The notes under the pieces are model-generated. The model saw only the letters and a program-made list of their open reading frames with translations, was not told the DNA's origin and did not search any database. From Gallaecimonas kandeliae (lineage in GTDB: Bacteria; Pseudomonadota; Gammaproteobacteria; Enterobacterales; Gallaecimonadaceae), in the NCBI RefSeq assembly GCF_030450055.1, contig NZ_CP118480.1:1391415-1455414 (forward strand): a stretch of DNA of 64,000 bases, in the 5' to 3' direction. This document shows, piece after piece, positions 56,222 to 60,162 of the stretch; position 1 is the stretch's first letter, and each line of letters starts with the position of its first letter. The position numbers and the translations under genes are program-made.

Positions 56222-56247
56222 AAGGCGCCCCAGTGGCGCCTTTTTTA
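56222..56247 (+). terminator. intrinsic terminator after the APH-like gene
   Basis: AAGGCGCC / GGCGCCTT stem, CCAGT loop, T6. Confidence 0.92.
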
Positions 56248-56457
56248 TTGCCCCAATGCTTACAAGTGGGTGAAAAACAATCTTTTTAATGCAAAACGGC
56301 GGCGGCTGGCTAGGCTCTATGAAAAGCACCCCAGGCTGGGGCAGGTTCCTCTTTCACGTGCGGCGCAGGTGCGCCGCCTCTTCGTCCAAGATGAGGCCAT
56401 GGAAAGGCGCCTTGCCCGGTTTGGGCTTAGGAAAGGCAATAACAACAAGGAACCACC

Positions 56458-59400
56458 ATGGACAAGCCAATCGACACCCCCGCCGGGCTGGACGCGCCCC
56501 GCAGCAAGATCCTCAACCTTGATTTCAGCCAGAAGGCCCTGGCCTATTTCCCGGACCACGCCGTCTACTGCAGTTTCTACGTCAACGACCATTCCCTGGA
56601 CATGCACCAGCGCTGGCAGGAGCTGGCCAGGCGCCTGGACGCCTACTGCGCCGACAAGGGCTACCGCAGCGCCGTGATCCTGGGGGTGGGCTTCGAGCTC
56701 TGGGCCGGCTGGAGCGAGGTGCTGGGGTATTCGCTGCCCCAGGGCATGGGCTCCAAGGCCAAGCTCGACGAACTGGGCCAGATCGTCGGCAACAGCGGCG
56801 GCGATCTCTGGTTCCACATCAAGTCCGACGACAAAAGCGACGCCGAGGCGCTGCGGGCCCTGGTGGAAGACGCCATGGCGCCTTACTGCCTGAAGGCGCC
56901 GCTTATAGTGGCGGCGGACAAGCGACACGGCGGCAAGGTGCTGGGGGGCCGTTTCACCGACGGCATCATCAACCCGCCGGACGCCGAGGATCTGTCCCAG
57001 CGCACCGTCATCGGCGGGGAAGATCCCAGCCACAGGGGCGGCGCCTTCCTGATCTCCCAGCGCTTCCTCCACGACTGGGAGAAGCTCGGCGCCATGAGCG
57101 AGCTGGACAAGCAGAACATGATAGGGCGGGACGACAAGGACAGGCTGATCCCCATGGACGACAGCGCCAGCCACATCAAGCGGGTGCGCCAATTGAATGG
57201 AGACAGGGTCAACTTCCGGTTGCTGCGCCAGGCGCTGCCCTTCGGCCACAAGGCCGACAACCGATCCCGTGAAGAGGGGGTCTTCTTCGCCGGCTACGCC
57301 AAGGCCAGCCATGTCTTCGACCAGCTGCTGGACGGCATCGCCGGCCACCAGAAGGGTTTCATCCAGGACCGGCTGTTCAGCGTCACCCACAGCCACCAGG
57401 GCTCTTACTGGTACGTGCCCAGCCTCGAAGAATGCGGCATCCAGGCCGGCCCCGGCAACGAAGAAATCACCATGAACGCCTACTTCGACGTGCGCAGCGA
57501 AAACGGCTACATGTTCTACAACGCCAAGGACTACCAGCACAAGGTGCGCCATTCCAAGCTGACCCAGGACTGCCCCCTGAGCGACCGCATACTGGCGCTG
57601 GTGGACAAGCAGTTCTCCCGCTGGCACGACACCTGGTACAAGCCGCGCCAGACCCCGCCCCTTGGCCACCTGCGCGACCACCTGGGCCCCGACGACAAGG
57701 CCCTGCTGGACGCCTCTGTGGTGCTGCGCAAGGGCAAGGCCACCCAGCTCAGCCTGTCCAAGATCCTGGTCAGCCCCGAGTACAGCAAGAAGGCCAACCT
57801 GCTGGCCATAGATCCCTTGGAGATCATCGTCGGCAACATGCCCCAGCTCTCCCTCGGCATCGGCAGCCAGGTGCTGGAGTACCTCAGCGAGGACGAGAAG
57901 ATCACCGGCTTCTTCAGCATGCTCAACGAGTATTCGGCCACGGGCCACAATGTGCCCAACCACAGCCGCCTGCTGGAGCTTGGCCTGGACGGGGTCCGCG
58001 CCCTGTTCAGCGAGCGGGCCAGCACGGCGCCGGCCGAGCGCCGCGACTTCTACCAGGCGGTGACCTGGACCCTGGAGGGCCTGTCGGCCTTCATCGAGGC
58101 CTACGGGAACCTCGCCCGGCGCATGCTGGAGGAGGGCACGGAGCTGTCGGACAGCGAGCGGGCCAACCTTCAGGACATCGCCCAGCGCATGGACAAGATA
58201 GCCCACCAGGCCCCCGAGACCTTTCTTGAGGGCCTGAACCTGGTGTTCCTGCTCAACTGCGCCCTGCACCAGACCGGCGAACCCATGTCCATCGGCCGCC
58301 TCGACCAGTTCATGCTGCCGCTTTACGAGCAGGACAGGGCCGCCGGGGTCAGCCAGGAGGCCATCCAGGAGATGCTGGACGCCTTCTGGCTGAAGATGGA
58401 CGAGACGGTGCTCTACAACTACAACCACCTCAACGACTACCTCAACTACGGCACCGGCGCTGTCTTCTACTCCGGCGGCAACTTCCCGCAAGGGGCGGCC
58501 ATCAACCAGTGGGTGCAGCAGCTGACGGTGGGCGGTGTGGTGGCGGACGACGCTCCCGTGCCCAAGGACGGCTCCAACGACCTCACCCTGATGTGCCTGC
58601 GCTCGGCCAGGCGCCTGCCCCTCAACGCCCCCTGCCTGTCGCTGCGGGTCCACAAGAACATGCCGGAGCCCCTCTTCGAAGAGGCGGCCAAGGCCATCCT
58701 CAGCGGCGGCGCCCACCCCATCATGCTCAACGACGACAAGCTGGTGCCGGCGCTGATGGCCTGCGGCCCGCTGCGCCTCGAAGACGCCCGGGATTACACC
58801 TGCGACGGCTGCTACGAGCCGGTCATCGCCGGCAAGACGGAATGGGCCTTCAGCTATGTGCCGCTGCTGCCCTATGTCGGCATGGCTATCAACCAGGGCG
58901 CCACCATACAGGGGGCGGGGCCCGTGAACCTGCGCGGCCTGAAAAGCTCCTGGAACTCGCCGCCGGCCCAGGAGATCCACAGCTTCGACAAGCTGATGGA
59001 CATCTTCTACAGCCACTGGAAGTGGGGCATAAACCAGTTCTTCAACACCCTGATGAACGGCTACGGGGCGCTCTGGAACTACTGCCCCAGCCCGCTGTTC
59101 TCTGCCTTCTTGGACGACAGCCTGGAGACGGGACGGGATCTCACCGACGGTGGCGCCCGCTACCACATAGTGGCGCCCATGATGTGCGGCATCACCAACG
59201 CCATCAACGCCCTCTACGCCATCAAGAAACTGGTGTTCGACCCGGCCACGGCCCGCTGCTCGCTGCCGCAGCTGCTGCTGGCGCTGCAATGCAACTGGGG
59301 CCAGAACATGCAGCCGCCTTTCTACACCAGCCTGGAAGGGCCACTGCGCCGCGATCAGGACGCCATCTTCTTCAAGGAGCTGCGCCAGGTGGCCCTGGCC

Positions 59401-60063
59401 CTGCCCAAGTTCGGGGTCGGTGACGACGCCGAGCTTGGCGAGCTGGCCAAATCGGTGGTGGCGCGCTGCGTGGGTATCATCCATGAGTGCTTCGACAAGC
59501 CCCTGCCGGGCATCAAGGCCGCCTACGAGGCCATACAGCAGCGCTACGGCAGCCCGGAGCGGCCCTTCGCCTTCACCATCACCCCTGGGGTGGGCACCTT
59601 CGAGGACAACGTCGGCCTCGGCATGGGCATGGGCGCCTCGGCGGACGGCCGCCTGGCGGGCCAGCCCACGGCGGACGACTTCGCCGCCGCCCCCTGGCCG
59701 GACGACCTGCCCTTCAACAGCCAGCAGAGCGACCCCTTCACCAGCCTCAAGGCCTGGAACGTCGAGCCCATCAACCACGGCATGGCCAACTGCGCCCCCA
59801 TCGACCTCAACATCCCGGAGGACTTCCCCCTGGACAAGTTGACCGAGCTGGTACGGGACTTTGCCCACGGCAAGCTGGGCTCCAACATGATCACCATCAC
59901 CTGCGCCGATCCCGCCACCTTCCAGGCGGCCCAGCAGTACCCCGAGAAGTACGACCTGGTGCGGGTACGGATGGGAGGCTGGAGCGAGTTCTATGTGGCC
60001 ATGTTCGACTTCCACCAGGACTACATATTGCGCCGGCCCTACTACGCGGTGCCGAGGGGCTGA
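56458..60063 (+). CDS. DyP-type heme peroxidase fused to a glycyl radical enzyme (1201 residues)
   Basis: Two enzymes in one frame. Residues about 20-335 are a dye-decolorising peroxidase: GRFTDGIINPP with distal Asp168, proximal heme ligand His239 (ASHIKRV), distal Arg257 exactly 18 residues later, and the GVFFAGYAKASHVFDQ C-terminal core. Residues about 375-1201 are a PFL-like glycyl radical enzyme of the non-PFL class: thiyl Cys785 and general base Glu787 in DGCYEP, and the radical loop VRMGGWS with Gly1174 (family consensus RVxGY). GRE proteins usually have 780-850 residues, so this half is complete. The GRE half needs a radical-SAM activase, which is not in the window. AAGGAA ribosome site, single start at 56458, terminator after it. 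Coupling an oxygen/peroxide-handling domain to an oxygen-labile radical enzyme suggests protection, but the reaction is unknown. Confidence 0.87.
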   Translation: MDKPIDTPAGLDAPRSKILNLDFSQKALAYFPDHAVYCSFYVNDHSLDMHQRWQELARRLDAYCADKGYRSAVILGVGFELWAGWSEVLGYSLPQGMGSKAKLDELGQIVGNSGGDLWFHIKSDDKSDAEALRALVEDAMAPYCLKAPLIVAADKRHGGKVLGGRFTDGIINPPDAEDLSQRTVIGGEDPSHRGGAFLISQRFLHDWEKLGAMSELDKQNMIGRDDKDRLIPMDDSASHIKRVRQLNGDRVNFRLLRQALPFGHKADNRSREEGVFFAGYAKASHVFDQLLDGIAGHQKGFIQDRLFSVTHSHQGSYWYVPSLEECGIQAGPGNEEITMNAYFDVRSENGYMFYNAKDYQHKVRHSKLTQDCPLSDRILALVDKQFSRWHDTWYKPRQTPPLGHLRDHLGPDDKALLDASVVLRKGKATQLSLSKILVSPEYSKKANLLAIDPLEIIVGNMPQLSLGIGSQVLEYLSEDEKITGFFSMLNEYSATGHNVPNHSRLLELGLDGVRALFSERASTAPAERRDFYQAVTWTLEGLSAFIEAYGNLARRMLEEGTELSDSERANLQDIAQRMDKIAHQAPETFLEGLNLVFLLNCALHQTGEPMSIGRLDQFMLPLYEQDRAAGVSQEAIQEMLDAFWLKMDETVLYNYNHLNDYLNYGTGAVFYSGGNFPQGAAINQWVQQLTVGGVVADDAPVPKDGSNDLTLMCLRSARRLPLNAPCLSLRVHKNMPEPLFEEAAKAILSGGAHPIMLNDDKLVPALMACGPLRLEDARDYTCDGCYEPVIAGKTEWAFSYVPLLPYVGMAINQGATIQGAGPVNLRGLKSSWNSPPAQEIHSFDKLMDIFYSHWKWGINQFFNTLMNGYGALWNYCPSPLFSAFLDDSLETGRDLTDGGARYHIVAPMMCGITNAINALYAIKKLVFDPATARCSLPQLLLALQCNWGQNMQPPFYTSLEGPLRRDQDAIFFKELRQVALALPKFGVGDDAELGELAKSVVARCVGIIHECFDKPLPGIKAAYEAIQQRYGSPERPFAFTITPGVGTFEDNVGLGMGMGASADGRLAGQPTADDFAAAPWPDDLPFNSQQSDPFTSLKAWNVEPINHGMANCAPIDLNIPEDFPLDKLTELVRDFAHGKLGSNMITITCADPATFQAAQQYPEKYDLVRVRMGGWSEFYVAMFDFHQDYILRRPYYAVPRG

Positions 60064-60080
60064 GCCGCCCAGGCAGTTCA

Positions 60081-60104
60081 AAGGCGCCTGCGGGCGCCTT
60101 TTTT
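60081..60104 (+). terminator. intrinsic terminator after the DyP-GRE gene
   Basis: AAGGCGCC / GGCGCCTT stem with TGCG loop and T6. Confidence 0.92.
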
Positions 60105-60162
60105 GTCTTGAAAGCGGCCCCCGCGCCCACCTCCTCAGCACAGCCACGAGAAAGGGAAGTCC

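Follow-up and report, generated by a model that had tools for sequence, protein, structure and literature searches.

The stretch of DNA analysed here, called the window, comprises 64,000 nucleotides of the Gallaecimonas kandeliae genome (contig NZ_CP118480.1, positions 1,391,415 to 1,455,414 of the forward strand). The gene under study, located at positions 56458-60063 of the plus strand of the window, is a single uninterrupted frame of 1201 amino acids with a DyP heme peroxidase in its N-terminal part and a glycyl radical enzyme (GRE) half in its C-terminal part. An earlier note, made from the sequence alone, had proposed that one frame joins the two enzymes, and this was confirmed by the frame itself, by the Pfam and NCBIfam scores and by homologous fusions in other genomes.

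The GRE half matched PF02901 (PFL-like) with 331.9 bits against a cut-off of 24.3, the match beginning at residue 483; the stretch before about residue 483, with the motif E-I-I-V-G-N-M-P, was assigned by eye as a diverged PFL N-terminal part. The peroxidase half reached 70 bits with PF20628 (Dyp_perox_C, cut-off 20) and 122.1 bits with the NCBIfam model TIGR01413 (Dyp_perox_fam, cut-off 100.5). From the three Pfam models that the earlier note had named, only PF02901 was above its cut-off, as PF01228 (Gly_radical) stayed at 16.8 bits, under 22.2, and PF04261, the N-terminal DyP model, gave no match in the Pfam scan of the window protein. No GRE equivalog reached its cut-off in the NCBIfam scan, the best being PFL2-3 with 247 bits against 678.2 and the other listed equivalogs lying further off. 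The named identities (PFL, choline lyase, hydroxyproline dehydratase, sulfopropanediol dehydratase and decarboxylases), being all under the NCBIfam cut-off, were rejected. Alignment with solved GREs, glycerol and diol dehydratase among them, placed Cys785 on the thiyl Cys, Glu787 on the Glu and Gly1174 on the radical Gly, and a profile-profile comparison (hhalign) with five canonical GREs gave the same placement (E 9.3e-68, 615 columns); a failure of these residues to align had been named by the earlier note as a point that would refute it. These three residues, and Asp168, His239 and Arg257 of the peroxidase half, were found exactly at the positions that the note had given. The homology indicates that the window protein is a member of the GRE superfamily.

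The best alignments of the DyP half were to type B enzymes, with DypB and DyPs associated with encapsulin among the top matches. The model of this half, built from an 8-row alignment, had a mean predicted local distance difference test (pLDDT) score of 56, a quality that suffices for a fold match to DypB and nothing finer, and its top fold match was DypB (E 9.2e-16). With its scores above the family cut-offs and a proximal His, a distal Arg and a distal Asp in the alignment, the protein is predicted to be a DyP-type peroxidase. The best fold match of the model was the engineered DypB variant N246A, and residue 259 (57232-57234), at the place of Asn246 of DypB, is Ala, and Gly in two fusions. 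An open frame of 1276 residues on the minus strand (56317-60147), antisense to the entire fusion gene, is most likely a by-product of codon composition.

The search for homologous architectures, suggested by the earlier note, led to six further full-length fusions, seven in total with that of the window. They were found in Litchfieldella anticariensis (L001; genome G059; 75% identical to the window protein), in a genome of the same family (G215; 53% identity), in a genome of the same class as the window genome (G511) and one of the same phylum (G917), on a plasmid of Asticcacaulis sp. AND118 (34% identity, 94% covered) and on an IMG/VR contig (L115; 36% identity over residues 24-1194). The segment between DyP and GRE has 160-214 residues in all seven. 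As the same fusion is full length in six other sequences, an assembly error or a missing stop near the linker, which the earlier note had named as the fault that could undo its proposal, was rejected. Rates were computed for a single pair, the window against L. anticariensis: the nonsynonymous (dN) and synonymous (dS) values were 0.232 and 1.52 in the DyP half (dN/dS about 0.15), 0.138 and 0.85 in the linker, and 0.180 and 0.80 in the GRE half (dN/dS about 0.23), the dS values of 0.8-1.5 being near saturation. Because dN/dS is low in each, both halves look kept by selection.

The fusion is rare and patchy. It was present in 2 of 369 genomes in the survey of the class (E at most 1e-40) and in 2 of 398 in that of the phylum (E at most 1e-100), the window's own genome being included in both counts; the class survey had a third match, to the canonical GRE of G347. 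Among 275 genomes from the family of L. anticariensis there were two full-length fusions and one remnant, and five more genomes with matches to the DyP part only. In the search of relatives the fusion occurred only in the window's own of 59 genomes, and in none of the four genus mates. Two decayed pieces were seen (L002 10001-10561 and L003 10001-10172). In L. qijiaojingensis just a remnant is left, part of the GRE half, and in L. anticariensis a further piece, from the C-terminal end, lies some 16 kb away from the intact gene and matches residues 1107-1140 and 1171-1198 only. The free DyP matches L084-L089 in the family of L. anticariensis lie in open frames that exceed a plain DyP in length (464-583 residues) and are possibly extended or otherwise fused. 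Plasmid records with a match numbered 144, one of them covering 80% of the query, and nine phage records had partial matches, none covering 80%. Viral contigs scanned with the single fusion sequence gave no match; the GRE profile found one contig and the full fusion profile the same one, and with canonical GREs and free DyPs one partial match and nine matches, respectively, were obtained, a yield too small for a deeper alignment.

Eleven of the key positions (His239, Arg257, His497, Glu608, Cys785, Tyr786, Glu787, Arg1171, Gly1173, Gly1174 and Trp1175) are invariant in the seven fusions, as are further Trp residues of the DyP half (W82, W118, W207) and of the linker (W389, W393). The radical loop reads R-M-G-G-W-S instead of R-V-x-G-Y-S, the five canonical GREs having R-V-[AS]-G-Y with a Tyr at the place of Trp1175. 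The residue after the Cys, Tyr in the fusions, is Val or Ile (G-C-x-E) in four of these five canonical GREs; L114 reads G-C-V-V. The Tyr and the Trp being absent from the five canonical GREs, the unusual radical motif and D-G-C-Y-E-P loop to which the earlier note had drawn attention were borne out, and by alignment the Tyr beside the Cys and the Trp beside the Gly are private to the fusion clade among the compared sequences. The redox-active Tyr786 and Trp1175 are what a hole-transfer path could use, or they could just shape the pocket. The alignment also puts Glu608-Pro609 at the His-Ser of glycerol dehydratase and a hydrophobic residue, Phe or Leu, at its later Asp, these being residues of the glycerol dehydratase pocket. 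Because these pocket residues are exchanged, the substrate of the GRE half is probably other than that of the dehydratases.

GREs whose mechanism is known depend for their start on a dedicated, oxygen-sensitive radical-SAM (S-adenosylmethionine) activase, which ties their chemistry to anoxia. The activase model TIGR02494 was above cut-off in none of the five fusion genomes searched (G059, G215, G511, G917 and the window's own, G000, which is one contig and 99.98% complete), against all three comparison genomes with canonical GREs (G026, G049 and G347), where the match lay a few kb from the GRE. The model was also below cut-off in the remnant-bearing genome G060 and in all four fusion-free genus mates. 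With PF13353, a model that covers NrdG-type enzymes, matches of 1e-54 in G026 and 1.4e-53 in G049 (NrdG- or PflA-like, not named by a model) were obtained, and none of that size in the five fusion genomes. The lack of a strong NrdG-type match in G000 fits oxygen-using bearers, and we take the named fusion bearers to be mostly oxygen-users. No canonical activase was found in the five searched fusion genomes; the earlier note had seen none in the window, and its observation extends, for known activase families, to the whole genome and to four other fusion genomes. The fusion is the sole PFL-like protein in each of the five and therefore cannot borrow the activase of another GRE. By contrast, the plasmid GRE of Moraxella osloensis and Acinetobacter towneri (a near-identical element) is followed directly by an annotated activase gene, and Moraxella and Acinetobacter are oxygen-users.

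The radical-SAM proteins of the fusion genomes were assigned where a model allowed it. PF04055 gave 12 matches in G000, nine of which were named above curated cut-offs (MiaB, RimO, HemW, BioB, LipA, HemN, RlmN, EpmB and QueE). Among the others, L051 matched Pfam Radical_SAM only and no named family, one is an IMP dehydrogenase by eye, and L057 (736-1989, minus strand) is a radical-SAM/SPASM protein that comes closest to XyeB, a cyclophane peptide maturase, but does not reach its cut-off. In the other fusion genomes the PF13353 matches named by a model were PqqE, EpmB, MoaA, QueE and ArsS. L053, L090 and L098 are SPASM/PqqE-like by eye, L111 matched no family at 1e-30 and L062 is unnamed.

On the plasmid of Hymenobacter cellulosilyticus the gene of a GRE of the fusion clade and a separate DyP gene lie 11 bp apart, in the order GRE then DyP, the reverse of that in the fusion. 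This GRE also has D-G-C-Y-E and R-M-G-G-W. In a GRE tree of 13 rows, made by a quick method, the seven fusions and the Hymenobacter GRE were separated from the five canonical GREs with a support of 100 in the Shimodaira-Hasegawa-like approximate likelihood ratio test (SH-aLRT), the position of Hymenobacter among the fusions not being settled. In a DyP tree of 33 rows the seven fused DyPs formed one clade (SH-aLRT 100), apart from the 25 free DyPs sampled, and the Hymenobacter DyP was found with the free ones. The eight best matches listed for it were itself and seven free DyPs, with no fused one, and its best NCBIfam match was the EfeB-like TIGR01412, below cut-off. The gene table of this plasmid, itself incomplete, has no annotated radical-SAM gene. 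Because the Hymenobacter DyP groups with free DyPs and the gene order is reversed, it is likely that the same GRE type has become linked to two DyP lineages, to one by fusion and to the other as a neighbouring gene, the pairing having arisen twice.

Table 1 Features of the fusion gene, its flanks and the associated DUF2608 genes. Positions are those of the window unless a locus handle is given; fractions refer to the seven full-length fusions.
Feature	Position	Strand	Basis or remark
DyP-GRE fusion gene	56458..60063	+	ATG start, AAGGA ribosome-site-like stretch upstream (by eye)
DyP heme-peroxidase half, about residues 31-335	56548..57462	+	TIGR01413 above cut-off; DypB fold match, low-confidence model
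GRE half, about residues 375-1201	57580..60060	+	PF02901, profile alignments
Asp168, distal acid	56959..56961	+	DypB alignment; Asp 5/7, Glu 2/7
His239, proximal heme ligand by alignment	57172..57174	+	Invariant 7/7
Arg257, distal Arg by alignment	57226..57228	+	Invariant 7/7
His497, T-G-H loop	57946..57948	+	Aligns with G-H of glycerol/diol dehydratases; invariant 7/7
Glu608	58279..58281	+	Aligns with His of the dehydratases' G-H-S-I-S loop; invariant 7/7
Cys785-Tyr786-Glu787, thiyl loop D-G-C-Y-E	58810..58818	+	Alignments, profile-profile comparison
Gly1174-Trp1175, radical loop R-M-G-G-W-S	59977..59982	+	Alignments, profile-profile comparison
Terminator-like hairpin after upstream gene	56222..56242	+	Hairpin scan
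Terminator-like hairpin just 3' of fusion stop	60080..60101	+	Hairpin scan
DUF2608 genes, uncommon, secreted-looking	L109 12601-13752; L149 2042-3034; L150 12473-13426; L167 5556-6479		PF11019

The fusion gene looks monocistronic in the window, because it is flanked by terminator-like hairpins; in this region the hairpin scan gave 4 where 2.4 would be expected. FNR-like boxes (up to 2 mismatches) were absent from 52450 to the gene start, and two lie within the fusion gene. In G215, G511 and G917 the next downstream gene on the same strand codes for a DUF2608 protein (PF11019, E 3.6e-23 to 4.2e-31), and by eye these proteins have an N-terminal signal-like stretch and a D-D-D-D-T-L HAD-like motif. 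A DUF2608 gene of the same sub-clade (13-row tree) lies in G000, 156 kb from the fusion; none was found in G059, and the gene listings show none as the next gene at the window, L. anticariensis, Asticcacaulis and IMG/VR loci. The background of DUF2608 is 20 of 369 genomes of the class (19 above cut-off), two fusion bearers included, and 0 of 14 control genomes; a literature search found no paper on this family. In G511 the DUF2608 gene is followed by a PF04185 phosphoesterase gene, and on the Hymenobacter plasmid a phospholipase D-like gene and a weak HAD match (below cut-off) come after the DyP gene. Because of these DUF2608, phosphoesterase, phospholipase D-like and HAD-like neighbours, the loci point to a phosphorylated compound somewhere in the pathway.

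Other neighbours were particular to one locus. Upstream of the Asticcacaulis fusion (L079 9628-11715), closely spaced and on the same strand, lie a DUF2278 gene and a formylglycine-generating-enzyme-like gene. The IMG/VR contig with the fusion (L115 1476-3497) has a cytidine-deaminase-like gene and a transposase-like frame by eye, and is possibly not a virus but a mobile element. Next to the fusion gene of L. anticariensis, a frame of 2550 amino acids (L001 1388-9040, minus strand) is RHS/YD-repeat and SpvB-like by eye.

The earlier note was not aware of any described fusion of this kind; the architecture is in fact already published, as the available excerpts of PMC5041501 describe, for fungi and bacteria, chains in which an N-terminal DyP-B is followed by a PFL domain at the C-terminus, with a significance called 'elusive'. 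The window protein has this architecture, DyP-B N-terminal and PFL C-terminal in one chain, and full-text literature searches turned up no other account of a DyP/PFL fusion. The proteins of Chaetomium cochliodes and related bacteria in these excerpts are likened to ours by architecture, not by sequence; they share the type B DyP, the PFL/GRE part and a function that is not known, and differ in that the fungus has a putative PFL activase whereas none of canonical type was found in the window genome. Four points are new relative to the same excerpts: that no known activase was found in the bacterial bearers, that a DyP seems to have been paired a second time, that certain residues are private to the clade and that DUF2608 genes are linked to the fusion.

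Compared with PFL2 and the glycerol and diol dehydratase GREs (1r8w, 5i2a, PflD, YbiW), the fusion has the same PFL-like domain, Cys-x-Glu, radical Gly and G-H loops. Unlike them, it has a DyP in cis, no canonical activase found, a Tyr after the Cys, a Trp after the Gly and exchanged pocket residues, and it lies far below all listed GRE equivalog cut-offs. Its peroxidase half is like the type B DyPs (Rhodococcus DypB 3qnr/3vee and the encapsulin-associated enzymes) in the fold and, by alignment, in the proximal His and the distal Arg and Asp; unlike these it is fused to a GRE, belongs to a clade apart from the 25 free DyPs and has Ala or Gly at Asn246 of DypB. The barrel that a glycyl radical activates in class III ribonucleotide reductase is started in class I by an oxygen-built cofactor. 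The class I enzyme served us as a working parallel, as there too a Cys thiyl is started remotely by an oxygen-derived metal oxidant in a related barrel, but the oxidant protein is unrelated and the fusion would have no nucleotide substrate.

We propose, with a probability of about 0.4, that the fusion is a self-contained, peroxide-powered GRE, whose heme makes the radical in cis and replaces the radical-SAM activase. The DyP half would react with H2O2 to give a ferryl heme or protein radical, and the hole would move to Gly1174 and/or Cys785, probably via conserved aromatic residues, Trp1175 and Tyr786 among them. As a thiyl, Cys785 would then carry out hydrogen-atom chemistry on a small substrate in the GRE barrel. 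By analogy, the heme domain would stand in for the radical-SAM activase like the cofactor of class I ribonucleotide reductase. Every radical-transfer step, and the reaction as well, is inferred. The proposal is supported by the activase counts (0 of 5 against 3 of 3), by the fusion being the sole PFL-like protein, by the likely second DyP pairing and by the invariant residues. We counted in its favour also the activase retained by the Moraxella and Acinetobacter plasmid GRE and, from the excerpts of PMC5041501, the induction of the fungal fusion gene 3-fold by H2O2 and 18.5-fold by peroxyacetic acid. More tentatively still, the sequences could represent a GRE-fold class without S-adenosylmethionine activase in which a peroxidase, in the same chain or in the next gene, loads the radical via H2O2 in oxygen-users.

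Several points weigh against the heme as the source of the radical. O2 cleaves glycyl radicals. The full-length AlphaFold model (3-row alignment) has a pLDDT of 40 and a predicted template modelling score (pTM) of 0.42 and gives no heme-to-Gly distance, and the Asticcacaulis and IMG/VR fusions have Glu at the position of Asp168. The activase comparison is small, with five fusion genomes against three with canonical GREs, and covers none of the genomes behind the Asticcacaulis, IMG/VR and Hymenobacter sequences. Genomes of the window's lineage as a rule have no activase, the one with the fusion like the others. As a control PF13353 discriminates poorly, the true activase of G347 having 33.5 bits when matches in the five genomes reach 52.6, and PF04055 was run on G000, G059 and G060 only. 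Unassigned or eye-judged radical-SAM proteins are left in G000 (L051, L057), G059 (L053, L062, L111) and G215 (L090, L098), an AmmeMemoRadiSam enzyme, weakly PflA-like, occurs in G059 (L064) and G917 (L120), and one of these proteins could act as the activase. In the excerpts of PMC5041501, a putative PFL activase is reported in the fungus. The second pairing is weakened by the very long branch of the Hymenobacter DyP, a placement that the tool warns is unsure, and by the sampling of the free DyPs, which are those found with the fused protein as query. The GRE and DyP frames of Hymenobacter are interrupted once each, and a second GRE copy on its plasmid (L168 9602-11443) is in four annotated fragments.

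A rival reading, which we hold to be rather doubtful, is an ordinary GRE with a built-in guard, whose DyP removes peroxide near an oxygen-sensitive radical installed by an unrecognised radical-SAM activase. In its favour, Gly1174, Cys785 and Glu787 are kept in 7 of 7 fusions, unassigned radical-SAM proteins and the AmmeMemoRadiSam enzymes of G059 and G917 are at hand, a putative activase is reported in the fungus, and the peroxide induction there, as far as the excerpts of PMC5041501 go, fits protection. An AmmeMemoRadiSam system protein B is named in a fungus in the available part of PMC12235711, and it is conceivable that the fungal 'PFL activase' is of this kind. Against the guard, no known activase family was above cut-off in 5 of 5 genomes, and the PF13353 matches of G511 (QueE, EpmB, ArsS) and G917 (MoaA, AmmeMemoRadiSam) share no unassigned candidate. 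The TIGR02494 search that showed AmmeMemoRadiSam enzymes elsewhere gave none in G000, G215 and G511, and this enzyme, a similar one of which was recognised by eye in G060 (L065), was rejected as a general activase. With no known activase found, the peroxide scavenging beside a conventionally activated radical that the earlier note had offered is in our view less likely than a peroxidase acting as radical source.

A tandem oxidation enzyme appears unlikely, slightly more so than the guard. In such an enzyme DyP and barrel would act one after the other on a single substrate, and Cys785 might serve the barrel with no glycyl radical stored. This reading would agree with the exchanged dehydratase pocket (Glu608-Pro609 on His-Ser, Phe or Leu on Asp), with the Pfam Gly_radical score below cut-off and with the downstream DUF2608 gene, which suggests a pathway; the radical Gly, its Arg and the Cys-x-Glu are nevertheless invariant in 7 of 7 fusions, and chemistry free of storage would have no need of them. 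A chance fusion, pseudogene or assembly artefact would suit the rarity and patchiness, the absence from all four genus mates and the decayed copies in two Litchfieldella genomes. It is, however, extremely improbable, and was rejected in view of seven full-length fusions in several taxa, the window's included, of the low dN/dS in both halves (one pair) and of the kept length of the DyP-to-GRE segment.

A GRE clade without known activase, seemingly paired twice with a peroxide-using heme enzyme, raises the question of whether peroxide can make a glycyl or thiyl radical. If the heme does not make the radical, a new activase family awaits discovery in these genomes, one of which is a single contig. 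The fusion architecture is already known, and the mechanism, if proved, would be a new kind of start for GRE chemistry. A radical made by the peroxidase would be a new way to start radical enzymes and a bridge to class I ribonucleotide reductase, possibly with an oxygen-compatible scaffold for hydrogen-atom chemistry, and, within the GRE branch, it would parallel with peroxide the transition from class III to class I ribonucleotide reductase.

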